DNA of 34,514 nt from Candidatus Ryanbacteria bacterium RIFCSPHIGHO2_02_FULL_48_12 (lineage in GTDB: Bacteria; Patescibacteriota; Minisyncoccia; Ryanbacterales; 2-02-FULL-48-12). The position numbers and the translations under genes are program-made. The stretch covers positions 16,752-51,265 of the forward strand of contig MHNR01000005.1 in NCBI GenBank assembly GCA_001819875.1, written 5' to 3'. The notes under the pieces were generated by a model. The model did no database searches, was not told the DNA's origin, and worked only from the letters and a program-made list of their open reading frames with translations. Below are positions 1,088-33,181 of this stretch, piece after piece. The stretch's first letter is position 1. Each line of letters starts with the position of its first letter.

Positions 1088-1157
1088 ATGTGAGTGCAGG
1101 TTTCTTGTAAACAGGCCAAATCTATATCAGTACAACGTCCGCCTCTGGCGGATTTTG
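1088..1157 (+). ncRNA. Candidate ~70-nt small RNA A
   Basis: The segment lies between a good promoter (TTGACT-N17-TATCAT) and an intrinsic terminator with stem TCCGCC (1138-1143), loop TCT, stem GGCGGA (1147-1152) and a TTTTGT tail. The only frames inside are a few codons long. I do not recognise an RNA family. Transcription is inferred from the two signals alone; it could also be a short attenuated leader. Confidence 0.35.
1138..1157 (+). terminator. Intrinsic terminator
   Basis: TCCGCC-TCT-GGCGGA is a perfect 6-bp stem with a 3-nt loop, followed by TTTTGTATTT. Confidence 0.6.
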
Positions 1158-1189
1158 TATTTATGGGGCTTAGAAAATAGAGCCTGGCA

Positions 1190-1198
1190 TGCTACAAT
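1190..1198 (+). promoter_or_regulatory. Extended -10 promoter element TGCTACAAT
   Basis: TGC followed by TACAAT is an extended -10 element. No clear -35 is visible. The same nonamer occurs on the minus strand at 29392-29400, where it also precedes a candidate small RNA. Transcription would begin near 1205. Confidence 0.45.
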
Positions 1199-1203
1199 AA
1201 GAA

Positions 1204-1300
1204 TAAGCCGGTTGGCAGTACTCACAAATGATATAGATGGGAGTTTACTCCTCCGGCTTACCAAAGAATCTGCCCGCTTTCTTGCCTGGCGGATTTTTTG
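1204..1300 (+). ncRNA. Candidate ~95-nt structured small RNA B, or murB leader/attenuator
   Basis: TAAGCCGG (1204-1211) pairs perfectly with CCGGCTTA (1253-1260) and encloses a GGAG-TTTA-CTCC hairpin (1240-1251). After it, TCTGCC (1269-1274) pairs with GGCGGA (1288-1293), followed by six T (1294-1299), a terminator-like end. The unit sits directly before the murB -10 element. A reading frame from ATG 1237 runs through it into murB, but its 26 extra residues do not resemble the MurB family. It could be an independent RNA, or an attenuator if transcription reads through. The family is not recognised. Confidence 0.35.
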
Positions 1301-1307
1301 TTATACT
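1299..1307 (+). promoter_or_regulatory. Extended -10 element of murB (leaderless arrangement)
   Basis: TGTTATACT at 1299-1307 ends only 7 nt before the murB ATG at 1315, so the expected transcription start falls at or next to the A of the start codon. No Shine-Dalgarno sequence is present. Confidence 0.55.
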
Positions 1308-1314
1308 CGAACAC

Positions 1315-2199
1315 ATGATTGATATCAAAAAAAACGTACCGCTCGCGCCATATACCTATTTTAAAATTGGTGGACCCGCCGCATTCTTTACCGAGGTAAA
1401 ATCCAATGAAGAGCTCCGTGAGGCTTTGGAGTGGGCGCACTCTTTGACTTTGCCATTTTTTATTTTGGGTGCTGGATCAAATGTGCTCATTTCTGACAAA
1501 GGATTTTCCGGACTTGTGGTAAAAATGGATTTGCAGGGTATCACAGGTGCGGGTGGATGCTTAGTTGCGAGCGCTGGGGTGGCAATGGCACGCGCAGTCT
1601 CGGAATCCATCAAACGTGGTCTCGGCGGATTTGAGTGGGCGATCGGTGTCCCCGGAACTATGGGTGGGTCGGTGCGGGGGAATGCCGGTTGTTATGGAGG
1701 AGAGATGAAAGATGTGATCCAATCAGTCGAGGTGGTGGAAGTGGGTGGCGCGGGGGTACGTACATTTACCCTGGATAATACGGCATGCGGTTTTGGGTAT
1801 CGCTCCAGTGTATTTAAATATCGCCCTGATTGGATTATCACCTCAGTGACACTCACGCTTAAAAAAGAAGATCCGGCTCGTAGCCAGGAGCTGGTCCGGG
1901 GATATGCGCAAAAACGTGCCACATCGCAAGCTATAGGGGCACAATGTGCGGGGTGTATATTTAAAAATCCTGCGGGGGATCGTGGCGCGGGGGCATTGAT
2001 TGACGCAGTGGGCCTCAAAGGTAAGACAATGGGGCACGCTATGATTTCTGACAAGCATGCTAATTTTATCATCAACACAGGTGGCGCTACCACAGAAGAT
2101 GTAGTGATGCTCATAGCGCTTATTAAGGAGCGTGTGCACACGGCATTTGGTGTACAGCTCGAGGAAGAAATTCAGTACGTGGGATTTGATCGTGCGTAG
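1315..2199 (+). CDS. murB: UDP-N-acetylenolpyruvoylglucosamine reductase
   Basis: MurB reduces UDP-GlcNAc-enolpyruvate to UDP-MurNAc with FAD and NADPH in the cytoplasm, the second committed step of peptidoglycan precursor synthesis. The FAD-domain motif ILGAGSNVLISD is near residues 48-59, followed by GFEWAIGVPGTMGGSVRGNAGCYGGE and GYRSSVFK. The C-terminal domain has CIFKNP and AGLKG/HANFIIN-like motifs of the short (type II) class. The start is placed at ATG 1315 because MIDIKKNVPLAPYTYFKIGG matches a normal MurB N-terminus; an upstream ATG at 1237 adds an unrelated stretch. The length is then 294 residues. The position normally held by the catalytic serine of the GS-x-FKNP motif is Cys214 (AGCIFKNP). 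Confidence 0.93.
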   Translation: MIDIKKNVPLAPYTYFKIGGPAAFFTEVKSNEELREALEWAHSLTLPFFILGAGSNVLISDKGFSGLVVKMDLQGITGAGGCLVASAGVAMARAVSESIKRGLGGFEWAIGVPGTMGGSVRGNAGCYGGEMKDVIQSVEVVEVGGAGVRTFTLDNTACGFGYRSSVFKYRPDWIITSVTLTLKKEDPARSQELVRGYAQKRATSQAIGAQCAGCIFKNPAGDRGAGALIDAVGLKGKTMGHAMISDKHANFIINTGGATTEDVVMLIALIKERVHTAFGVQLEEEIQYVGFDRA

Positions 2200-2432
2200 A
2201 AGTGCGCATAACGGGGGAACTAACAAAAAGTTATGTATGCACTACATAATTTTTTTTGCAGAGATATCCACAGTTTTGCTGCTCGAAATATTTTTTTACG
2301 TGAGAAGTGTGAGATAATTATTTCAGAAACACGTGGGACATGATTTGGTTCATGTACGCGCAGAACAAAATTGTTTCTTCATGACAAATATAGGTCGGTA
2401 TTTGTCGAGCGAACCGAATAATTTTTACTACA
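2200..2432. other. Non-coding gap between murB and the lysine-rich mini-gene
   Basis: About 230 nt, AT-rich, without a supportable gene. It holds one DnaA-box-like word (ATATCCACA, 2264-2272) and the short inverted repeat CATGATTTGGTTCATG near 2339-2354. No terminator directly after murB is obvious. Confidence 0.4.
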
Positions 2433-2483
2433 ATGGCAGCAAAGAAAAAGACAAAGGCGAAGAAGGCAAAGAAGAGACTCTAG
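2433..2483 (+). CDS. 16-residue lysine-rich mini-peptide
   Basis: ATG 2433 to TAG 2481-2483 encodes MAAKKKTKAKKAKKRL: 9 Lys and 1 Arg in 16 residues. Support for a real gene is contextual. A -10-like TAATTT (2419-2424) lies 8 nt before the ATG, the same spacing as at other genes here, and a strong terminator starts 25 nt after the stop. The composition recalls the basic tails of histone H1-like or ribosomal proteins, so nucleic-acid binding is a fair guess. It has no fold or family I recognise. Alternatively, the region could be a small RNA starting near the ATG. Confidence 0.4.
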   Translation: MAAKKKTKAKKAKKRL

Positions 2484-2507
2484 TCTTTCTTTGATTCTCT
2501 CGAAATG

Positions 2508-2536
2508 CCCCGCGTGATGCGGGGTGTTTCTTTTTT
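2508..2536 (+). terminator. Strong intrinsic terminator after the mini-gene
   Basis: CCCCGC (2508-2513), loop GTGAT, GCGGGG (2519-2524), then TGTTTCTTTTTT. Confidence 0.85.
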
Positions 2537-2588
2537 GGGGTCATAGAATACTATCTTTGTAGGTGGGGGTGTTTGGGACGTTTTACGG

Positions 2589-2594
2589 TATAAT
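2589..2594 (+). promoter_or_regulatory. -10 element (TATAAT) of the hibernation factor gene
   Basis: A consensus TATAAT lies 40 nt before the ATG at 2635. A second possible -10, TATTAT, is at 2605-2610. No good -35 and no Shine-Dalgarno sequence can be seen. Confidence 0.45.
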
Positions 2595-2634
2595 AAGAGT
2601 AACCTATTATTAGCTAACGGCGTTATGAAATCAT

Positions 2635-3051
2635 ATGAAATTAAACGTAAAAGCAACGCAGTTTAGTCTTACGCCGAGTGTTGAGGAGTATATCAATGAC
2701 AAGCTGATCCGTACGGTAGAGCGTCTTACTAAGCGCATGGATCCCGAGAGTATCCGGCTCAACATTGAGGTGGCAAAAACTACAAAACATCACCAAAAGG
2801 GCGAGGTCTGGCGCGCAGATGCGACCTTGCGTCTTGGGGGTAAAAGTATGCGCAGTGAGGCGTCGGGTCAAAGTATTCAGGAGGCAATTGATTTACTTGA
2901 AGAATCACTTGGCATGGAGATAAAGGGATTCAAGGGGAAGGAAGAGGCAGTAGAAAAACGTCAGGCGCGCAAACTCAAACGTGCCACAAAGTTTTCCAAG
3001 GCCGCGCGTCCTCGGCAAAAGTCTGCCCGTGTGCGCAATGAGAGTATGTAG
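2635..3051 (+). CDS. hpf: Ribosome hibernation promoting factor (HPF/RaiA/YfiA family)
   Basis: A 138-residue protein whose first ~105 residues match the ribosomal S30AE fold: MKLNVKATQFSLTPSVEEYI, a central DATLRLGGKSMRSEASGQSIQEAIDLLEESL, and the alternating strand/helix pattern. The family binds the 30S subunit and silences or dimerises ribosomes during slow growth. The long-form C-terminal dimerisation domain is absent. Instead there is a ~30-residue Lys/Arg-rich tail (RQARKLKRATKFSKAARPRQ) that probably touches rRNA. It stands alone, with its own promoter and a terminator behind it. Confidence 0.85.
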   Translation: MKLNVKATQFSLTPSVEEYINDKLIRTVERLTKRMDPESIRLNIEVAKTTKHHQKGEVWRADATLRLGGKSMRSEASGQSIQEAIDLLEESLGMEIKGFKGKEEAVEKRQARKLKRATKFSKAARPRQKSARVRNESM

Positions 3052-3068
3052 GCCTCATAAAATAAAAT

Positions 3069-3120
3069 GCTCGCTTCTCTGCGGGTATTTTATGTAGGGT
3101 ATCGTGTAGCGAGCGGTTTT
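3069..3120 (+). terminator. Intrinsic terminator with a long loop after hpf
   Basis: GCTCGCT (3069-3075) pairs with AGCGAGC (3108-3114), followed by GGTTTTTT. The 32-nt loop is unusually long. Confidence 0.55.
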
Positions 3121-3159
3121 TTGCAAAAATAAACTCGCTTGTTGCATATATTCTTTGGG

Positions 3160-13755: not shown

Positions 13756-16700
13756 TTATCGAGCCTCTTCTTTTTTGTTGAGTGCGTAGAGTACAGAGAG
13801 GAGTATGAGTATTACCGCAAGTGGCAAGACAATGCACCCAAGATGGAGTATCAATGCGACCGGCATTGCTATAAATACCCCAACAATCCAGAAAAATATT
13901 TTGTCGGATATATGGTGCATGGGTTTTCGCCAAATGAGCTCCATGAGGACGATGAGCGCGAGCACGACCAGAAGTGCGATGATACATTCTAGTGTTTCGC
14001 CGGATGAAGGAGGGGCGCTAAACACGGAAGCCAAGAGATTACGAAATCCATTTTGTGATTGGTCTATGCCCACGGGTGTCTCATCAAGGTTGAGTGGCGG
14101 AGAGTCGATCTGTTCAGGTAGGGGCTCTGTATCAGCAGATGTGGGCATAGTCGGAGTTGTAGATGACTGGTCGGTATGCGGAGTGGATGATGTTGATGTG
14201 TTTTGGGTATTAGAAGATATTGTTCGCGATTGAGTGGGTGGAGTCGTAGATGTGGAAGATGTCGGATTTTCTTGCCGTGTGCTCGGTGGTGTGGCGAGCG
14301 TAGGCCGTGGTCGGGATGAGATATTGAGTGAGGCGAGATACGCTTTGAATGTTTGGATTTCTTGCTTCTGTGCATCGGTAAGCGCAAATTCACGTGCACA
14401 GTATATCTCGTTTACCCGTTTTTTGGTGGTGATGTAGACATACCCGGTTGGTTTGTCGTGACCCCAGGGCGCCAGTACCAGATCAAAGTATTTTTGTTGG
14501 AATTGTGATACGGCATTGAATGTAGTGAGATCGAAAAAGCCGGTTATCTCCAGATTGGTGAATCCCTCAAAGTTGCGCAGAAATACTTGGAGTTTGCGTA
14601 CCTCGACAGGATTATTGTTGGCGCCGTACTTAAGATACTCAAGGAGATAGTTGCACTCTTTTGGCGCTTCAGAGATAGTGACTTCTCTGCCGATTGCTTT
14701 TGATGACCATTCTTCGGAAATAGGGCGGAAATAATAGGGCGTTTTCGAGATAAGACCGTCGATGACGATGCTGTGGTCTTTTATAAGGGCAGTGCGCTTA
14801 TCCGTGGTATTAGTGTAGCCAAAATTGACTCGTGAGCCATCGGCGAGAGCCTGCGTACTTGTGCCATATACCACCATGCTCGTGCCAGGGATATTGGTGG
14901 TCCATGTGATGAGTGCGGACGTATCGGACAAAGATACGGCTCGCTCATTGGTGATGGTGATACTAGTTTGCTGGAGTATGCCACCGCCGCCAACAATATT
15001 ATTACTGGGTGAGTTACCGCCTCCGCCGCCACTGCTCGGTGGGTTATCTTTGGACAGTATACTAACCACACGCCTTACCTCGGGAGCAGAGGTATTTTTT
15101 GAGTCCTTTACATTGTAGACAATGCCGTATGTCCCCACCGCAGTAGACGAGGTAATTACATCTCCCGATACTACGATATGCGCGGTGATGTCTCCATCTT
15201 CTTGGTCGAAGGCGGTAGCACCCGGATCGGAGAAGGCATCACCAGTTCTTATCTCGTAGGGGTTGTTACCGACTATGGTGATTATTGGTGTGGCATTTTC
15301 ATCGGTGTCGTTCGGGTCGTAAGATGCTCCATTTTCTGGATTGTTGTCGGCGTGACACGCTGGATCAGCCGTATCTATTTTTGTGTCGGTATCATTGTCG
15401 ATGCCGTCGGAGCATTGCGGGTGTGTTGGAGAAATAATAACTGTACGTCGTACCTCGGGCGCGGAGGCGTTTCGGGAGTCTTTTACATTGTAGGCAATGG
15501 TGTACGTCCCTGGGGCGGTGGATGAGGTAATGACGTCACCCGAGACTACAATGTGTGCCGTGGTATCGCCGTCCTCCTGGTCTTGGGCTGTGGCGCCCGG
15601 ATCAACAAAGGGAGTGCCAACTACTAGAGTAATGGGGTTCTCGCCATTGAGTGTGAGGGTTGGAGGTAGATTTTCATCGGTGTCGTTCGGATCATATGAG
15701 GTATCATTGGTTGGGTCCCCATCTGTGTGGCATCCCGGATCCATACTATCGATCAAATCATCTCCATCATTATCCGTATCATCCGAGCATTGGGGGTGTA
15801 TTGGAGAAATTATGACGATACGCGTTTTTTCTGGAGCGGAGGTGTCTTTGGAGTCTTTGACGTTATAGGTAATGGTATATGTTCCTACCGGTGTTGTTGG
15901 TGTGATCACATGCCCGCCGACTACGATATGCGCGGTGATGTCTCCATCTTCTTGGTCGAAGGCGGTAGCACCGGGGTCGGTGAAAGTTGTACCAAATGTA
16001 ATAAAGAATGGATCATTTCCGAGAACGTTAATGGACGGTCTGGAGTTTTCGTTGTCGATATTAGGATTATACGAAGAGGTGTTGTTGGGGTCTTCGTCCG
16101 TATGGCACGCTGGGTCTGCTTGATCAATTTTCGTGTCCCCATCATTATCTTTACCGTCTGAACATTGTGGCTTTGGCGGTTGGGGGGTGGTTTCCTTGAC
16201 GATGACCGTACGTCGTACCTCCGGTGCCGGTATGTCTTTTGAATCTTTGACATTATAGATGATGGTATATGTTTCCGGCACAGTTGGAGTGATTACATCT
16301 CCTGAAATTACAATATGCGCCGTGATATCGCCGTCCTCCTGGTCTTGGGCTGTGGCACCCGGATCGGTGAATGTGCTCCCTTGAATTACGGTGAGAGGAT
16401 TGTCGCCAAGAATGGTGATCACAGGCGCGTGGTTCTCGGGCGGTTTATGCTCGTCTAAGAGACATTGCAGCGCGCCCTGGGCGTAGGAGTTTATTTTTGC
16501 CAAAAGTATTTTCTGCGTCGTATCTGTGTTTGGGAGCGGCGCGGATGGATCACATGTACCTGTGTCATCGCTCGTATCAAGATCGGGAAAATGTATTCTG
16601 CCATTGTTTACGATTCCTTTGCAGGAGGTAAGTATATTTTTGCCGTCAATACCGTTCTTGTTTTCTGTGCTTAGAGTTGCACGCTCGCCAATGCGCAAAG

Positions 16701-18306
16701 CTCCATTGTATGATCGGATGATATTGTTGCCACCAAGTGTGCGTACATCATGCGCTTCGGAGTTGACTACAATTTTTTCGGTGGTAGTGGCACCATCATT
16801 TCTATTGTCCGTTACGGAAAATGATATGTCATTTTTGGCGAATAGCGTAATGGATCCTTTGGTGCCATATCTATTTGCGTTATCAAACGCACGGTCACGT
16901 GCGGTGATGCTCCCTTCGAGAGAGCGCACATCAATTGTGCCGCTTTTGGAACCGTTAGAGGCAGTTTTTACCGCGACGGCACCAAAGTTTGGGTTCTGTT
17001 TATCTAAAATTATATTTCCAAGGACTGTGATATTTCCTTTGGCACGGATGTTGATCTGTCCAGGCAGAGGGTCGCGTTTGGCATATACGAATATGCCGCT
17101 GGTGCGGGGGATGCGCGTACCTTCCAACTCATCCGGGAAGCGGTTTGTACCGTCTACCAGTACAGATCCATTAAATGAAATGACGTTAATAGTGGAGGTG
17201 GCACCACTGCGGTAGTTTGATTCTATTAGGCCATGAAGTTCAATATTGCTTTGCGCGAGAATATCGATATTACGCCCGCCGTGATCCACTCCGTTTACCA
17301 CGATACGCGATTTTGGCCCGGTGATAATATCGCCACAGCAAGATACGATAGTGATTTGCCCGGGTGCTTGCATGGTGCCGCCGACGGTATTGAGTACGGA
17401 CCCGTCTATGATAACGTCATCCCCGCCTTTAATAAGTATATTTCCTGCAGGTTGATTGAGAGACTGTACCTCTAGCAATGCTCCTTCCTCGACAAATACA
17501 GAGCAGGTGGTTTTGATGATGATGCCCGGGGCGTAGCGGTTATTAGCACCAGTCGGGACTTGGATAGTTTTGATGGAGGCGCCATTTTTTACTACAAGGC
17601 GCTTTCCGCCAAGATCAAAAACAGCATTCCATGTATTTGCCGTGGTGCTATTCTTCTCATATGTGAAAAATTGGCAGAGATCTTGATCGCCGATGCAGGT
17701 TGGCGTGGGTTGGTTAAAATCAGCGACCACATTTTCGTCTACTACAATTTCAATAATATTCCCCAGGGAATCTTTCTCGCAGTTTGCACATGCGGTTGGT
17801 GCGTCGCTTTGCGTTATGGTCTGGAGCTCTGTGCTCATTGTCCTCAATTGTGGTGGGTCATCTTGGCTGGTAGCATCCGGTGTTTCTGTGGCTGATTCCA
17901 ATGGGGCGACTTGCCCTTCTACTTTTTCAGCCCCCTCCTCAACGGGAGTATTACCTGCCTCATTCGTATCAGACATGTCTATGTCCGATATATTTTCGAC
18001 CTTAGAATCTTCCTCCTCCAGGATAAGATTCATCCCCTCGGTATCGGTAGTCTGTGGAGATTCTACGCTCGTTTCCTGGTTATTTTCCAATGGTTGAGTC
18101 TCTATAACTTCAGTAGGCTTGACCACCTCTTCGGTAACTATAGAAGCCATCTGGGCCTCCTGGGAGGCTTCAGAAGCACTTTGCGTGTCTTGAGGTGTGC
18201 TATCTATAGAGGCCAAAAACTCTTCCGCAAGAAGAGTTTTTGGAGATCCTAGTAATAGAGTAGTAGAGAAAAGGAATAACGAAAAAACAACCAGTAGGCG
18301 TTTCAT
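13756..18306 (-). CDS. Giant multidomain cell-surface protein (DUF5011 repeats, Ca-type linkers, FN3-like, peptidoglycan-binding, membrane anchor)
   Basis: 1516 residues. A signal peptide (MKRLLVVFSLFLFSTTLLLG) leads into a Glu/Thr/Ser-rich spacer (~30-170). Residues ~210-600 are rich in short strands and I/N/G ladders, resembling a right-handed beta-helix adhesin. Four DUF5011 Ig-like domains start near 628, 757, 882 and 1007 (marker DPGATA-x-DQEDGD). The three linkers carry CSDGxDNDGDxxID-DPxCH, a calcium-loop type. A fibronectin-III-like domain (~1115-1210) precedes a peptidoglycan-binding-like domain (~1212-1303: YLKYGANNNPVEVRKLQVFLRNF). A Thr/Ser/Pro stalk (~1325-1425) ends in hydrophobic C-terminal segments (~1438-1512). 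It probably forms a wall-spanning, membrane-anchored adhesin or surface-layer component. It is a single gene with its own terminator. Confidence 0.88.
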   Translation of the reverse strand: MKRLLVVFSLFLFSTTLLLGSPKTLLAEEFLASIDSTPQDTQSASEASQEAQMASIVTEEVVKPTEVIETQPLENNQETSVESPQTTDTEGMNLILEEEDSKVENISDIDMSDTNEAGNTPVEEGAEKVEGQVAPLESATETPDATSQDDPPQLRTMSTELQTITQSDAPTACANCEKDSLGNIIEIVVDENVVADFNQPTPTCIGDQDLCQFFTYEKNSTTANTWNAVFDLGGKRLVVKNGASIKTIQVPTGANNRYAPGIIIKTTCSVFVEEGALLEVQSLNQPAGNILIKGGDDVIIDGSVLNTVGGTMQAPGQITIVSCCGDIITGPKSRIVVNGVDHGGRNIDILAQSNIELHGLIESNYRSGATSTINVISFNGSVLVDGTNRFPDELEGTRIPRTSGIFVYAKRDPLPGQINIRAKGNITVLGNIILDKQNPNFGAVAVKTASNGSKSGTIDVRSLEGSITARDRAFDNANRYGTKGSITLFAKNDISFSVTDNRNDGATTTEKIVVNSEAHDVRTLGGNNIIRSYNGALRIGERATLSTENKNGIDGKNILTSCKGIVNNGRIHFPDLDTSDDTGTCDPSAPLPNTDTTQKILLAKINSYAQGALQCLLDEHKPPENHAPVITILGDNPLTVIQGSTFTDPGATAQDQEDGDITAHIVISGDVITPTVPETYTIIYNVKDSKDIPAPEVRRTVIVKETTPQPPKPQCSDGKDNDGDTKIDQADPACHTDEDPNNTSSYNPNIDNENSRPSINVLGNDPFFITFGTTFTDPGATAFDQEDGDITAHIVVGGHVITPTTPVGTYTITYNVKDSKDTSAPEKTRIVIISPIHPQCSDDTDNDGDDLIDSMDPGCHTDGDPTNDTSYDPNDTDENLPPTLTLNGENPITLVVGTPFVDPGATAQDQEDGDTTAHIVVSGDVITSSTAPGTYTIAYNVKDSRNASAPEVRRTVIISPTHPQCSDGIDNDTDTKIDTADPACHADNNPENGASYDPNDTDENATPIITIVGNNPYEIRTGDAFSDPGATAFDQEDGDITAHIVVSGDVITSSTAVGTYGIVYNVKDSKNTSAPEVRRVVSILSKDNPPSSGGGGGNSPSNNIVGGGGILQQTSITITNERAVSLSDTSALITWTTNIPGTSMVVYGTSTQALADGSRVNFGYTNTTDKRTALIKDHSIVIDGLISKTPYYFRPISEEWSSKAIGREVTISEAPKECNYLLEYLKYGANNNPVEVRKLQVFLRNFEGFTNLEITGFFDLTTFNAVSQFQQKYFDLVLAPWGHDKPTGYVYITTKKRVNEIYCAREFALTDAQKQEIQTFKAYLASLNISSRPRPTLATPPSTRQENPTSSTSTTPPTQSRTISSNTQNTSTSSTPHTDQSSTTPTMPTSADTEPLPEQIDSPPLNLDETPVGIDQSQNGFRNLLASVFSAPPSSGETLECIIALLVVLALIVLMELIWRKPMHHISDKIFFWIVGVFIAMPVALILHLGCIVLPLAVILILLSVLYALNKKEEAR
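15170..16356 (-). repeat. Tandem DUF5011-linker units, alternating ABAB at DNA level
   Basis: Units of about 125 codons repeat inside the surface protein gene. A 53-nt identical stretch occurs at 15170-15222 and 15920-15972 (copies 4 and 2). A different 31-nt identical stretch occurs at 15564-15594 and 16326-16356 (copies 3 and 1). Alternate copies are thus more alike than neighbours, which suggests duplication of a two-unit block. Confidence 0.8.
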
Positions 18307-28958: not shown

Positions 28959-29195
28959 ATGAGAATAAGCGTACATATCAAGCCAAAATCAAAACACCCC
29001 GAGGTTAGAGAAGACCGAAGTGCGGGGGTCGTAGAGGTATATGTATCCGCGCCGCCGGTGGATGGCAAGGCCAACGAAGAGATGCTGGAGCTATTGGCTG
29101 ATTATTTTGAAGTTGCCAAAAGCCTGATTACCATCGTCTCCGGACATACGGCTCGCCAAAAGATTGTTGATATTCCAAATTGGAAACGGCGTTGA
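28959..29195 (+). CDS. yggU: DUF167 (UPF0235/YggU) family protein
   Basis: 78 residues, small alpha/beta fold: MRISVHIKPKSKHPEV, then VEVYVSAPPVDGKANEEMLELLADYF, then SLITIVSGHTARQKIVDI. The AxPxxGKAN motif and SGHTARQK (usually G-x-x-S-R-x-K) define the family, whose function is unknown despite wide occurrence. The first ATG is the only sensible start. It is transcribed away from typA with very little space between them. Confidence 0.93.
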   Translation: MRISVHIKPKSKHPEVREDRSAGVVEVYVSAPPVDGKANEEMLELLADYFEVAKSLITIVSGHTARQKIVDIPNWKRR

Positions 29196-29214
29196 TTGAT
29201 AATTTTTCTTCCAG

Positions 29215-29385
29215 AAAAAAACGGACCCCCTGGTGAGGGGGTCAAAGAGGAAAGTTATCAAACAACAAAAATCCAAACCGCGATATGGGGGTGAGACTTC
29301 ACATAATGGCACAAGAGTGCCGATAGCCAACATGGGCTCAAGGGAGTCTAACCCCTATACGTTGAGATGGATATTTCTATCCTCG
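29215..29385 (-). ncRNA. Candidate structured non-coding RNA (~170 nt)
   Basis: An extended -10 TGCTACAAT on the minus strand (29400-29392) predicts a start near 29385. An intrinsic terminator at the other end (GACCCCCT/AGGGGGTC stem 29224-29243, then seven U on the minus strand) closes it. In between lie a GGATA-TATCC hairpin (29369-29382), a long-range stem (29345-29355 with 29288-29298, 10 of 11 pairs), and inside that stem AGCC-GGCT (29325-29338) and GGCAC-GTGCC (29308-29321) hairpins. No reading frame of note is present. It does not show SRP, RNase P, tmRNA or 6S signatures that I can recognise. Confidence 0.5.
29224..29243 (-). terminator. Terminator hairpin of the candidate ncRNA
   Basis: GACCCCCT-GGTG-AGGGGGTC, a perfect 8-bp stem. 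Only on the minus strand is it followed by a U-run (29221-29215), so it acts in that direction. Confidence 0.75.
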
Positions 29386-29492: not shown

Positions 29493-30557
29493 TTAAGGAT
29501 TCGTTTCCAGGTACGCATAGAGGTGTTTGCCAGTCTCGTTGTACACTACTTCGTCTATTGCTCGCGCGGAGAGTGAAAAAAGCTTGCGACTGGATATGTC
29601 CATGTTCTTTGATTCGCTTACAGCAAATATGAGACCTATGAAATCCCCGGTATATGGGTCTATAAGTGCGCCACCCGAAGACCCTTTTTGCGAGCCAAGG
29701 CTCTGGAGAGATTGTATAAAGTATGCATCTTTTGCTTCAACGATGGTTTCGGAAAAAGAAAGGTAGAGGTAGGTAGTAATAGCTTGAAAGCCGAGGAGTT
29801 CGGCAGGATAACTGAATGTGGCGAGTGCTGTGCCAATGACTGCCTCTTTGGTGGGGTCGATAGTGAATGCGGGGAATGATACGGGCAAGGGGGTTTGATT
29901 GGCGGATGAGACGACGCGCCAAATCGAAACGTCTTGGCGGAGATTCTCGTCGGAATGTTTGGTGATAGAAAAGTTTTTTGGCATGAACACGCGCTCTACA
30001 AATGCATATGCATGTGCCGGAGAGCCTTGCCGTACCAGACAGCGCTGGGACTTTGTTTCTTCGGCGACGTGTGCATTGGTAATGATATATCCTTTGTCGC
30101 TTACCAGTATGCCGGTGGCGACACTTATCTCGCCGTTGCCTACATCGCAGAAAAAGTTAACGACGCGACTAGCCGCATGCGCATAGAGCTCCGCTTGCGG
30201 GATGCGATCTTTGTGCGGTGTGGGTACGGGCGCAGGGATTTTGATTGCATCAAAAGCCGCTTGAGCGTTTTGGAGATCTTGCTGGAGTTTTTGGAGTATC
30301 ACCTCGCGGTCTTTTTTTGATTGTGCGGGCTGTAGGTTCTCTTTTTGCGGTTCTCGTGTGCCGGGGGTCGTGGTAGTTTTTGTGTATGTTTCTGTAGAAG
30401 AGGTCGCAGATTCCTCTGTTGATGATGCGATATCTTGAAATATCGGAGGATTTTTTGGTATGTCGATAACTAATCGGGGAAGTAGATTTTTTTCAAATAC
30501 AAGGATTGCAAAGAGAAGCGCGAGGAGGGTGCTTGCTAGAATAATTCGAGTGCTCAT
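29493..30557 (-). CDS. Membrane-anchored trypsin-like serine protease
   Basis: 354 residues. An N-terminal membrane anchor (IILASTLLALLFAILVF, ~5-21) is followed by a Ser/Thr/Glu-rich spacer, a short coiled coil (DREVILQKLQQDLQNAQAAF) and a chymotrypsin-fold domain (~125-345). The triad is readable: His in NAHVAEE, Asp in RQDVSIWRV, Ser in QKGSSGGALID. No PDZ domain follows, unlike HtrA/DegP. It probably works outside the membrane on envelope or surface proteins. Its ATG overlaps the murD stop as ATGA, so it is the third gene of the murL-murD operon; a role near cell-wall synthesis is an inference from that. Confidence 0.88.
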   Translation of the reverse strand: MSTRIILASTLLALLFAILVFEKNLLPRLVIDIPKNPPIFQDIASSTEESATSSTETYTKTTTTPGTREPQKENLQPAQSKKDREVILQKLQQDLQNAQAAFDAIKIPAPVPTPHKDRIPQAELYAHAASRVVNFFCDVGNGEISVATGILVSDKGYIITNAHVAEETKSQRCLVRQGSPAHAYAFVERVFMPKNFSITKHSDENLRQDVSIWRVVSSANQTPLPVSFPAFTIDPTKEAVIGTALATFSYPAELLGFQAITTYLYLSFSETIVEAKDAYFIQSLQSLGSQKGSSGGALIDPYTGDFIGLIFAVSESKNMDISSRKLFSLSARAIDEVVYNETGKHLYAYLETNP

Positions 30558-31801
30558 GAGCGTTTTTTACCTAAGCGTTTTGCCCATGACGCAAATTGTT
30601 TGCCGCGGTCTTGGTAGTCTCTAAATAGTCCAAAGCTAGGGGAGGCGGGTGAGAGGAGAGCAACATGCCCTGGTGTGGTTTCTCGAAATGCGATGGTGAC
30701 GGCTTCCCGCATGTCTTTGGCGAAATATTCTTTTTGCGGGGTGCGCTTAGCGATGCGATGCAGAGACGTTTGCATGCGCTTGCCACTCGGGGCAAATAAA
30801 ATAAGCGTTTTAATATGTGTGCGTCGCGCAATAAATTTGGCTAGACGTGAGAAATCTATACCGCGGTCAAATCCGCCGAGGATGAGCGTTTGCACGCGCG
30901 CGCCAAGCGCCTCGACCGCATACATGGCGGCTTCAGGAATGGTGGCGATAGAGTCGTTGTAAAATTGTATGCCGTGGTATGTGCCGATGGGTTCCAGACG
31001 ATGGGGAAGGGGTTTGAATGTCTCGATGGCATGAGCCGCATGTTTGTCAGACACACCCATGATATGTGCAATGGTATATGCGGCGCGGATATTCGCTTCA
31101 TTGTGCTTGCCCTTGAGGTGTGTGGGTCCGAGCGCAAACGGGAGCGTTTTGATGATAGGGACGGCTTTTGCTTTTGTATTGCGCGCGAGCTTGGCAAGCC
31201 GCGGGTAGAGCGGATCATATACAAAATAATCACCGCTTATGGCGTGCAAGACCATGCGCTCTTTTGCCTGCCAATAGACAGAGCGTGTGCCATGAAAATC
31301 CAAATGCTCCTCATAGAGATTGAGGATGACTGAGATGTGCGGGGAGCAGTGAAGATCCATCGTCTGAAAACTCGAAAGCTCGCATACGTATACGGTATTT
31401 TTTTTCACGGGTCGCAGAAGTTCGGTGAGCATGGGATAGCCGATGTTTCCTACAAGGCGTGCATCGAACCCACCATGTTTGAGTATTGATGCTACTAGTG
31501 CTGATGTGGTGCTCTTGCCTTTTGATCCGGTGATACCGATGATGGGACGTTTGCTACTGGCAAAAAATATATTGGTGGCTGTGGTATACGGGATGGTGAG
31601 TTGTTTTGGGTGTGTGCCGGGGGAGCGAATAGCAAGATCATAATCTTTTTGTTTTTTAAGATAGTCCGCGCCTTTTTTAGCATCGGTGATGCCAACACGC
31701 ATCTTTGGAAATTTTTTGCGCAAAAAATCCCGCGTGGCTTTGCCCTCGATACCATAGCCGACGATAAGTATTTTTTTGTTGCGGAGTGCCGATAAGTTCA
31801 T
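30554..31801 (-). CDS. murD: UDP-N-acetylmuramoyl-L-alanine--glutamate ligase (MurD; probably the L-glutamate-adding MurD2 type)
   Basis: 415 residues with the Mur ligase order: N-terminal Rossmann domain (KKILIVGYGIEGKATRDFL), P-loop GITGSKGKSTTSALV, ELSSFQ, NLYEEHLDFHG, the Lys of QAKERM expected to be carbamylated, then GKHNEANIRAA, HRLEPIGTYHGIQFYNDSIATIPEAA and a C-terminal domain ending LLSPASPSFGLFRDYQDRG. MurD adds glutamate to UDP-MurNAc-L-Ala using ATP. NDSIATIPEA differs from the usual D-glutamate enzyme pattern NDSKATN and, as I recall, matches MurD2-type enzymes that add L-glutamate. Adjacent murL supports this. It is joined by ATGA overlaps to murL upstream and the protease downstream. 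Confidence 0.92.
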   Translation of the reverse strand: MNLSALRNKKILIVGYGIEGKATRDFLRKKFPKMRVGITDAKKGADYLKKQKDYDLAIRSPGTHPKQLTIPYTTATNIFFASSKRPIIGITGSKGKSTTSALVASILKHGGFDARLVGNIGYPMLTELLRPVKKNTVYVCELSSFQTMDLHCSPHISVILNLYEEHLDFHGTRSVYWQAKERMVLHAISGDYFVYDPLYPRLAKLARNTKAKAVPIIKTLPFALGPTHLKGKHNEANIRAAYTIAHIMGVSDKHAAHAIETFKPLPHRLEPIGTYHGIQFYNDSIATIPEAAMYAVEALGARVQTLILGGFDRGIDFSRLAKFIARRTHIKTLILFAPSGKRMQTSLHRIAKRTPQKEYFAKDMREAVTIAFRETTPGHVALLSPASPSFGLFRDYQDRGKQFASWAKRLGKKRS

Positions 31802-33141
31802 AGGTGTTTCGTGGCGGACAAAAATGTTTTGGGTATAGCGTGTGTGCGCAATATTCTGAGAGCTTGCCGTTTGAGTTTTATCTTGTCTTTGATTTTGTGG
31901 AGGACTTTTTTCTCAAACAAACGTATCGCTGGCGCATCTCCAAACTCGCCACGTTCGTGAATACACAAAAATGCATATGCCATCTCCTCGGGAGTACCGA
32001 CGCATTCAAATGGTTTAAACCCGCGTATGCCGAGGAGCTCTTCGTAGGTGGGGAGAAGTTCGCGGTCAGCAAATAGATTTTTGCCGAATATTTTTATAAC
32101 TTCTTTTTTTGGGAGAAATGCCGCAAGCATACTAAACACAAAAGCGCATTTGGGGCATGCTCCGCACCATCGCTTGCTGTGGAGCGAGTCACGGATTTTG
32201 AAATTGCGGTTACAACTTGAAAATACGGCGAAATATTTTTTATGCTGAGAAAATAGTTTGGTGATTTCTATCTCGGTAAGCTGGCGCAGAAGTGAAAAGT
32301 AGGTGATATCGGCGGAGAGGTGTGTTTTGGCGTATGCCTGGAACATGCGTTCGAACTCAAGTGTTTTGGACCATTGGTGGTTGATGGTGGTGCCGCGCCA
32401 GCGAATATTGCCATAGTCTGCCGATGCCTCATTGGAAGCGATAACGTAGCGGTATCCGTAGAGGGCCGCGGCTAGGGTGCCGGTGAGTGCGTAGATAAGG
32501 GAGATAGGAATGTGGCCGTTAAACGTATCGGCATGTGTATTGAGTGAGAATAGTTTTGGATCAAGCTGGTGGCGTATAAGAATCGGAGTTTCTTTCATAA
32601 TCCGTAGCGTGTCATTTTGTACGCGCGAGTCATTGAGGAGGAATGGCGTGAATCGTTTTTTGTTTTTCTTGAGTGCCTCGGCTGATACGAGCGAGTCTTT
32701 ACCGCCTCCTATGAGTAAGAGACTGCGATCGGGTGTTTTACAGCGGACGGGTTTGGGTATCGTCGCAGATGCATCATAGGGAAATATGACCAGGCGTCGA
32801 AAGTCGATTCGGTTTTTATAAAAAAATTCGCCGAGGCCTTTGGTGTATACTGTATTCCAAAAGTCCGCTTCGGCACGTGAAAGCATGCGGTTTTCTAGCA
32901 CGATTTTTTTTGGCGCATAAAGTTTCCAGTAGCTTATGCCAAGGGCAATATGAAGCGCATTGCAGATACGCTCTATAAGTTCGGCAGGCGGGTGGGCAAG
33001 GCTTTTGGTTTGGTAGGTGAGTGTGTCAGTAAAGTCCAGAGTCTCCTTGCCGCATTGCATTTGATACGAAAAAGAAATGACCCCACGTTTCGGGTCGTGC
33101 CGCCAATCTTTATATATAAAAACGGTTTTTGAGCCTCTCAT
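31798..33141 (-). CDS. murL: UDP-MurNAc-L-Ala-L-Glu epimerase (MurL)
   Basis: 447 residues from the second ATG (33141, MRGSKTVFIY). The first ATG (33150) lies only 2 nt after the -10 and would not be in the transcript. LLLIGGGKDSLVSAEAL is the PP-loop ATP site. The family pattern follows: FNGHIPISLIYALTGTLAAALYGY, ASNEASADYGNIRWRG, NHQWSKTLEFERMF, YFSLLRQLTEIEITKLF, FSSCNRNF, RWCGACPKCAFVFSMLAAFLP and GFKPFECVGTPEE. I recognise this as MurL of Xanthomonas type, which turns the terminal L-Glu of UDP-MurNAc-L-Ala-L-Glu into D-Glu using ATP. Four cysteines in the CNRNF/CGACPKC region may bind metal. Its stop overlaps the murD ATG (ATGA). Confidence 0.88.
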   Translation of the reverse strand: MRGSKTVFIYKDWRHDPKRGVISFSYQMQCGKETLDFTDTLTYQTKSLAHPPAELIERICNALHIALGISYWKLYAPKKIVLENRMLSRAEADFWNTVYTKGLGEFFYKNRIDFRRLVIFPYDASATIPKPVRCKTPDRSLLLIGGGKDSLVSAEALKKNKKRFTPFLLNDSRVQNDTLRIMKETPILIRHQLDPKLFSLNTHADTFNGHIPISLIYALTGTLAAALYGYRYVIASNEASADYGNIRWRGTTINHQWSKTLEFERMFQAYAKTHLSADITYFSLLRQLTEIEITKLFSQHKKYFAVFSSCNRNFKIRDSLHSKRWCGACPKCAFVFSMLAAFLPKKEVIKIFGKNLFADRELLPTYEELLGIRGFKPFECVGTPEEMAYAFLCIHERGEFGDAPAIRLFEKKVLHKIKDKIKLKRQALRILRTHAIPKTFLSATKHL

Positions 33142-33152
33142 AAACACCATTG

Positions 33153-33181
33153 ATTCTATCGCAGATTCGCCTGTATGCCAA
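33153..33181 (-). promoter_or_regulatory. Promoter of the murL-murD-protease operon
   Basis: Minus strand TTGGCA (33181-33176), 17 nt, TAGAAT (33158-33153). ATG 33141 lies 11 nt further, so the leader is about 4-5 nt. Confidence 0.65.

Follow-up and report, generated by a model that had tools for sequence, protein, structure and literature searches.

Here we report the analysis of a candidate MurD2/MurL gene pair, murL-murD, from Candidatus Ryanbacteria bacterium RIFCSPHIGHO2_02_FULL_48_12, a member of the Patescibacteria, together with the distribution of its homologs in 384 genomes of the same class. The pair is encoded in a 34,514-nucleotide stretch of contig MHNR01000005.1, referred to below as the window. 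In the MurD2/MurL route, L-glutamate (L-Glu) is attached to the cell wall precursor by MurD2 and epimerized there by MurL, which makes the pair a candidate replacement for the glutamate racemase MurI as the source of peptidoglycan D-glutamate (D-Glu). The pathway was characterized in Xanthomonas oryzae, where MurD2 is XOO_1320 and MurL is XOO_1319 (Feng et al. 2017, reviewed in PMC8788868, PMC5808125).

The murL-murD locus

The locus consists of the following features, given in window coordinates.

31798-33150, minus strand: murL, PP-loop epimerase candidate (450 aa; 447 aa with the start at Met4)
31798-31801, minus strand: ATGA overlap of the murL stop and the murD start (4 bases)
30554-31801, minus strand: murD2, UDP-MurNAc-L-Ala ligase, predicted L-Glu user (415 aa)
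30554-30557, minus strand: ATGA overlap of the murD stop and the protease start (4 bases)
29493-30557, minus strand: membrane-anchored trypsin-like serine protease, overlapping downstream neighbor of murD (354 aa)

The three open reading frames (ORFs) are co-directional, and both junctions are 4-base ATGA overlaps, as described in an original prediction made from the letters of the window. That prediction placed the three genes correctly within 29493-33158, but its upper end lies 8 bases upstream of the murL start codon, and the 447 residues that it counted for the PP-loop protein hold only if Met4 is the start of the 450-residue ORF. Each of the motifs that it listed, namely GGGKDSLVS, NGHIP, NHQWSKTLEFE, and CGACPKC as the MurL set and NDSIATIP in MurD, is present in the encoded proteins.

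MurL identity and predicted fold

The product of the gene at 31798 matched a single NCBIfam model, the MurL model NF041275, over profile positions 4-442 of 447 (360 bits, E=1.8e-107). The same model was matched by all 72 aligned MurL sequences from other phyla, including Lysobacterales, of which a partial stretch scored 569 bits. Because its match is full-length and its score falls below 700, a cut-off that delimits the Xanthomonadales equivalog and not the wider MurL family, the window protein is classified by sequence as a MurL family member outside that equivalog. It shares 39% identity over 312 aa with a Lysobacterales MurL and keeps 13 of the 13 invariant columns of the 72-sequence alignment.

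A Pfam search of the window MurL returned no family match. However, with the profile of the 72 MurL sequences, the GGGKDS loop gave matches to TtuA and MnmA, both PP-loop proteins, and the AlphaFold model of the window protein (predicted local distance difference test, pLDDT, 96; predicted template modeling score, pTM, 0.94) had QatC and QueC as its nearest folds, followed by Cap9 and TtuA. Profile and fold thus place in this protein both the SGGxDS-type loop and the HUP fold of the PP-loop ATP pyrophosphatase superfamily, and the NF041275 match identifies it as MurL rather than another PP-loop family, in agreement with the original prediction. Chance similarity or misannotation of a PP-loop gene was ruled out by the E-value, the PP-loop profile, and the predicted fold.

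By its predicted fold, MurL fits a QueC/QatC-like PP-loop enzyme. The invariant Cys313, as well as Cys329, Cys332, and Cys335, line up with the cysteines of QueC in a profile comparison that is itself weak. QueC activates a carboxylate, converting ATP to AMP. MurL requires one ATP and produces AMP (PMC8788868). This concordance of predicted fold and chemistry supports the proposal that the first MurL step would be PP-loop adenylation of the Glu alpha-carboxylate.

Residues that decide glutamate chirality in MurD

The window MurD scored 286 bits against TIGR01087, for which the cut-off is 212. In Xanthomonas MurD2, Glu197 and Arg358 replace Asp182 and Lys348 of Escherichia coli MurD and decide for L-Glu, so that swapping both residues switches the enzyme to D-Glu; Pro433 and Phe435 differ from E. 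coli MurD as well, and a change of Lys319 opens the E. coli enzyme to L-Glu (PMC8788868). At E. coli positions 182, 319, 348, 414, and 416 (published numbering, which excludes the initiator Met), E. coli MurD has D, K, K, A, and L, and the window MurD has E, I, R, P, and F, matching at all five the MurD2 that adjoins murL in Lysobacterales (L195).

Among the MurD proteins fused or adjacent to MurL, the 182/348 pair was E/R in 72, D/R in 12, G/R in 2, and D/S in 1, with two incomplete. The unlinked canonical MurD proteins of the class had D/K in 30 of 30 resolved cases, a control set that leans towards the canonical type because the best-scoring MurD proteins were chosen. The unlinked group also contained a truncated MurD (D/-), a ligase of another kind, and two MurD proteins (E/R and E/-) that belong to murL loci but exceed the adjacency limit of 1 kb. 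In the tree, the window MurD falls inside a clade of exclusively MurL-linked MurD proteins. With this placement and the L-Glu residue set, it is predicted to take L-Glu. The original prediction had read NDSIATIP, in place of NDSKATN, as a sign of L-Glu use. The motif is present, but the loss of its Lys is not diagnostic, since unlinked MurD proteins of the same class have Thr or Ala there; NDTTAT and NDTAAT in these proteins rule it out as a stand-alone diagnostic, and the weight is carried by the equivalents of D182E and K348R.

D-glutamate sources in the host genome and in the class

The host genome (990,529 bases in 32 contigs, with a given completeness of 100% and contamination of 1.2%) encodes exactly four Mur ligases, namely MurE, MurF, MurC, and the window MurD, as well as alanine racemase (Alr), and its MurB lies within the window. 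In family searches, neither TIGR00067 nor PF01177 detected a glutamate racemase in the genome, and no aminotransferase matched PF01063 at E-values up to 10. Neither murI nor a D-amino acid transaminase gene, the two alternatives for which a search had been proposed, was thus detected, as expected of a genome that uses the MurD2/MurL pathway.

Across the 384 genomes of the class, which includes Sungbacteria, Moranbacteria, and Staskawiczbacteria, a MurL match was found in 40 (39 excluding the weakest), a strong MurI in 74, and a PF01063 gene in 81; 204 genomes had none of the three, and a MurD-family match was present in 323. MurL and MurI occurred together in two genomes only, both belonging to a clade of MurL-like proteins without an adjoining murD (the orphan clade, described below). 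Once the four orphan-clade genomes were removed, the overlap was 0 of 35 against an expected 6.7 (p=0.0004, without correction for kinship); the orphan clade was defined by tree and motifs, though it was recognized after the overlap had been seen. MurI and PF01063 genes are both found 29-269 bases from murD in several class genomes, and the class therefore seems to use three interchangeable murD neighbors, MurL, MurI, and the PF01063 gene. The PF01063 aminotransferase gene lies 118-269 bases from murD in six genomes (G147, G169, G070, G131, G091, and G112), suggesting that a D-amino-acid transaminase may form a further D-Glu supply module.

An alignment-based scan of named genomes yielded at least 575 relatives of MurL; no matches were obtained when genome contigs were scanned with the window protein alone as query. 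The best 80 of these at least 575 relatives are mostly from Patescibacteria, including Levybacteria, Roizmanbacteria, Moranbacteria, Peregrinibacteria, Gracilibacteria, Saccharibacteria, and others, plus Proteobacteria and one Myxococcota genome. The literature places MurL in Gamma- and Alphaproteobacteria and in some actinobacteria, and lists distant members from cyanobacteria, a fungus, and an amoeba (PMC8788868, PMC5808125).

Gene order and MurL-MurD fusions

Many relatives share the gene order aspS, a further gene, mraY, murL, murD, ftsW, murG, gltX. The murL-murD order is widespread, but the murL-murD-protease order, the recurrence of which had been proposed as a check, was not found again. 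We identified 31 distinct proteins in which MurL and MurD form a single chain, with MurL first, each encoded by one ORF and about 770-980 residues long. Most of them belong to one clade, from which L130/L132 and L187 are separate. They are encoded at the following loci.

L008-L016, L128, L130-L132, L135-L140, L142, L143, L148, L151, L153, L156-L158, L162-L166, L187: MurL-MurD fusions

The literature searched, from which subscription papers and preprints were excluded, held no mention of MurL in Patescibacteria and no description of a MurL-MurD fusion. The pathway itself has been described before. That literature appears not to report its fused form, nor its occurrence and frequency in Patescibacteria.

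A probable MurD2/MurL route in place of glutamate racemase

We interpret murL-murD as a MurD2/MurL route to peptidoglycan D-Glu that replaces glutamate racemase in the host, with a probability of about 0.9. The evidence comprises the identity and order of the genes, the residue signature, the lack of another known D-Glu source, recurrence, fusion, and the predicted fold. The main claim of the original prediction, an L-Glu route in place of MurI, is therefore supported by the MurL match, by the residues and tree placement of MurD, and by the absence of murI and PF01063 genes. In the proposed scheme, which takes its enzyme activities and chemistry by analogy from the characterized Xanthomonas pair, L-Glu would first be attached to the wall precursor and then flipped to D-Glu in place. 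Using its PP-loop, MurL would adenylate the attached L-Glu at the alpha-carboxylate, converting ATP to AMP and PPi, and would thereby make the alpha proton labile. The pair would thus stand in for glutamate racemase in a Patescibacteria genome of the Paceibacteria/Parcubacteria type.

The orphan clade has its own sequence features. Its members (L017, L018, L020, L023, L167, L169, L170, L171, L173, and L175) lack an adjoining murD, and those read have GAGKDS for GGGKDS, xxAYP for NGHIP, and HQWCK for HQWSK. The clade possibly represents a new PP-loop function.

Several observations weigh against the replacement of racemase by MurD2/MurL. The window MurL reaches about half of the NF041275 cut-off, which was set on Xanthomonadales, and its residue 194 is His, where 71 of the 72 aligned MurL sequences have Arg. 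Two orphan-clade genomes retain MurI, one of them with a D/K-type MurD, and because of this coexistence homology to MurL is not sufficient proof of the epimerase reaction. The absence of murI is by itself weak evidence, since 310 of the 384 class genomes (about 80%) lack a strong murI, and a gene could have been missed in a gap of the 32-contig assembly despite its stated completeness. The orphan clade, together with the roughly 200 of 384 class genomes that lack known D-Glu sources, and in which others may therefore exist, also lends some plausibility to a different reading, namely that an unrecognized racemase, such as a broad Alr, supplies D-Glu to a MurD of the ordinary D-Glu type, and that the MurL-like protein adenylates another carboxylate, as in QueC/QatC. 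We consider this improbable, since the window MurL retains GGGKDS, NGHIP, and HQWSK, three motifs no longer intact in the orphan clade, its gene overlaps a murD that encodes the L-Glu residue set, and the MurL-MurD fusions couple the two activities.

The protease gene and the origin of the locus

The protease matched Trypsin_2 PF13365 with 46 bits (cut-off 27.6) and has a hydrophobic N-terminal segment and a complete His/Asp/Ser triad in the motifs TNAHV, RQDVSIW, and GSSGG, conserved in relatives. The original prediction had counted it as the third gene of the wall operon, and an anchored protease that acts on the assembly or regulation of peptidoglycan would agree with its ATGA overlap with murD. 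In two genomes of the same family, its ortholog (48-49% identity) lies head to head with murI (L097 in G001, 112-1967; L098 in G003, 1100-3137), about 30 bases away in one of them. However, overlapping genes are frequent in compact genomes, in other relatives from the order the protease gene has rsmI and a DUF192-like gene (both assigned by eye) as neighbors, with no D-Glu gene adjoining and no murL, and none of the other murL loci examined carries it. A three-gene functional operon is thus unlikely, and a role of the protease as third pathway gene was rejected in view of its occurrence without murL and its absence from other murL loci. For the same reasons the protease is probably a bystander rather than a functional part of the murL-murD module.

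No murL was found in the sampled genomes of the same family or order, and in the tree the window MurL groups with Levybacteria and Sungbacteria with moderate support, so acquisition of murL by transfer is likely. Since the protease ortholog adjoins murI in the two same-family genomes, the locus fits a scenario in which murL-murD2 took the place of murI at one site, a pattern seen in these two genomes only. The lack of murL in sampled same-family genomes, and the distance of about 1.4 kb between murL and the contig end (C5), could also be read as contamination or misassembly of the contig end. We regard this as very unlikely, given that the downstream protease gene and an acyl-carrier-like gene of the window are syntenic with G003, where the latter also lies near the protease and murI genes, and that without the window MurD the host genome would have no MurD. 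Contamination was rejected, with no sign of it in GC content or codon usage, both of which in murL, murD, and the protease gene are similar to the remainder of the window.

Between bipA and the protease gene, the window contains a small plus-strand ORF (about 28960-29240; DUF167/YggU-like by eye) and a terminator-like CCCCCTCACCAGGGGG with a T run near 29235-29210 on the minus strand. The minus-strand gene at 13756-18306 encodes a surface protein of 1516 residues, which combines Ig-like repeats with a weak peptidoglycan-binding domain. No Rfam families or tRNA genes were found in the window.

Comparison with known systems and implications

The window pair resembles X. oryzae MurD2/MurL as adjoining genes with full-length MurL motifs, the E/R/P/F residues in MurD, and a genome without MurI or D-amino-acid aminotransferase, but differs in its Patescibacteria host, its 360-bit score, the protease gene overlapping the murD end, and in being known here from sequence. 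The MurL-MurD fusions of Moranbacteria, Staskawiczbacteria, and other Patescibacteria have the same domains in the same order, with MurD in the same large clade and mostly E/R, and differ from the two overlapping genes of the window in forming one polypeptide. MurL shares a predicted fold and PP-loop with QueC, QatC, and Cap9, and its four-cysteine pattern SCN...WCGxCPKC resembles that of QueC, but it has an extra N-terminal region, the NGHIP and NHQWSK motifs, and a different substrate, and a comparison with E. coli QueC by sequence alone gave a weak match. The canonical MurI and MurD route uses free D-Glu, and its MurD has Asp and Lys at the deciding positions.

The MurD2/MurL route has until now been known mainly from Xanthomonas-type bacteria. 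Most sampled genomes of the class lack a recognizable glutamate racemase, and MurD2/MurL would explain the D-Glu supply of about one-tenth of the class. The residue signature would allow MurD chirality to be predicted from sequence, the QueC-like predicted fold offers an explanation of the ATP-to-AMP chemistry of MurL, and the natural MurL-MurD fusions would be ready-made constructs for coupled-reaction tests and for the structure of an epimerase with an unsettled mechanism. It is likely that a sizable fraction of the Patescibacteria, about one-tenth of the class in the sample of 384, builds its peptidoglycan without free D-Glu through MurD2/MurL, in many cases with a bifunctional MurL-MurD2 whose L-Glu intermediate need not leave the enzyme, and that the orphan clade has shifted to another carboxylate-activating reaction.

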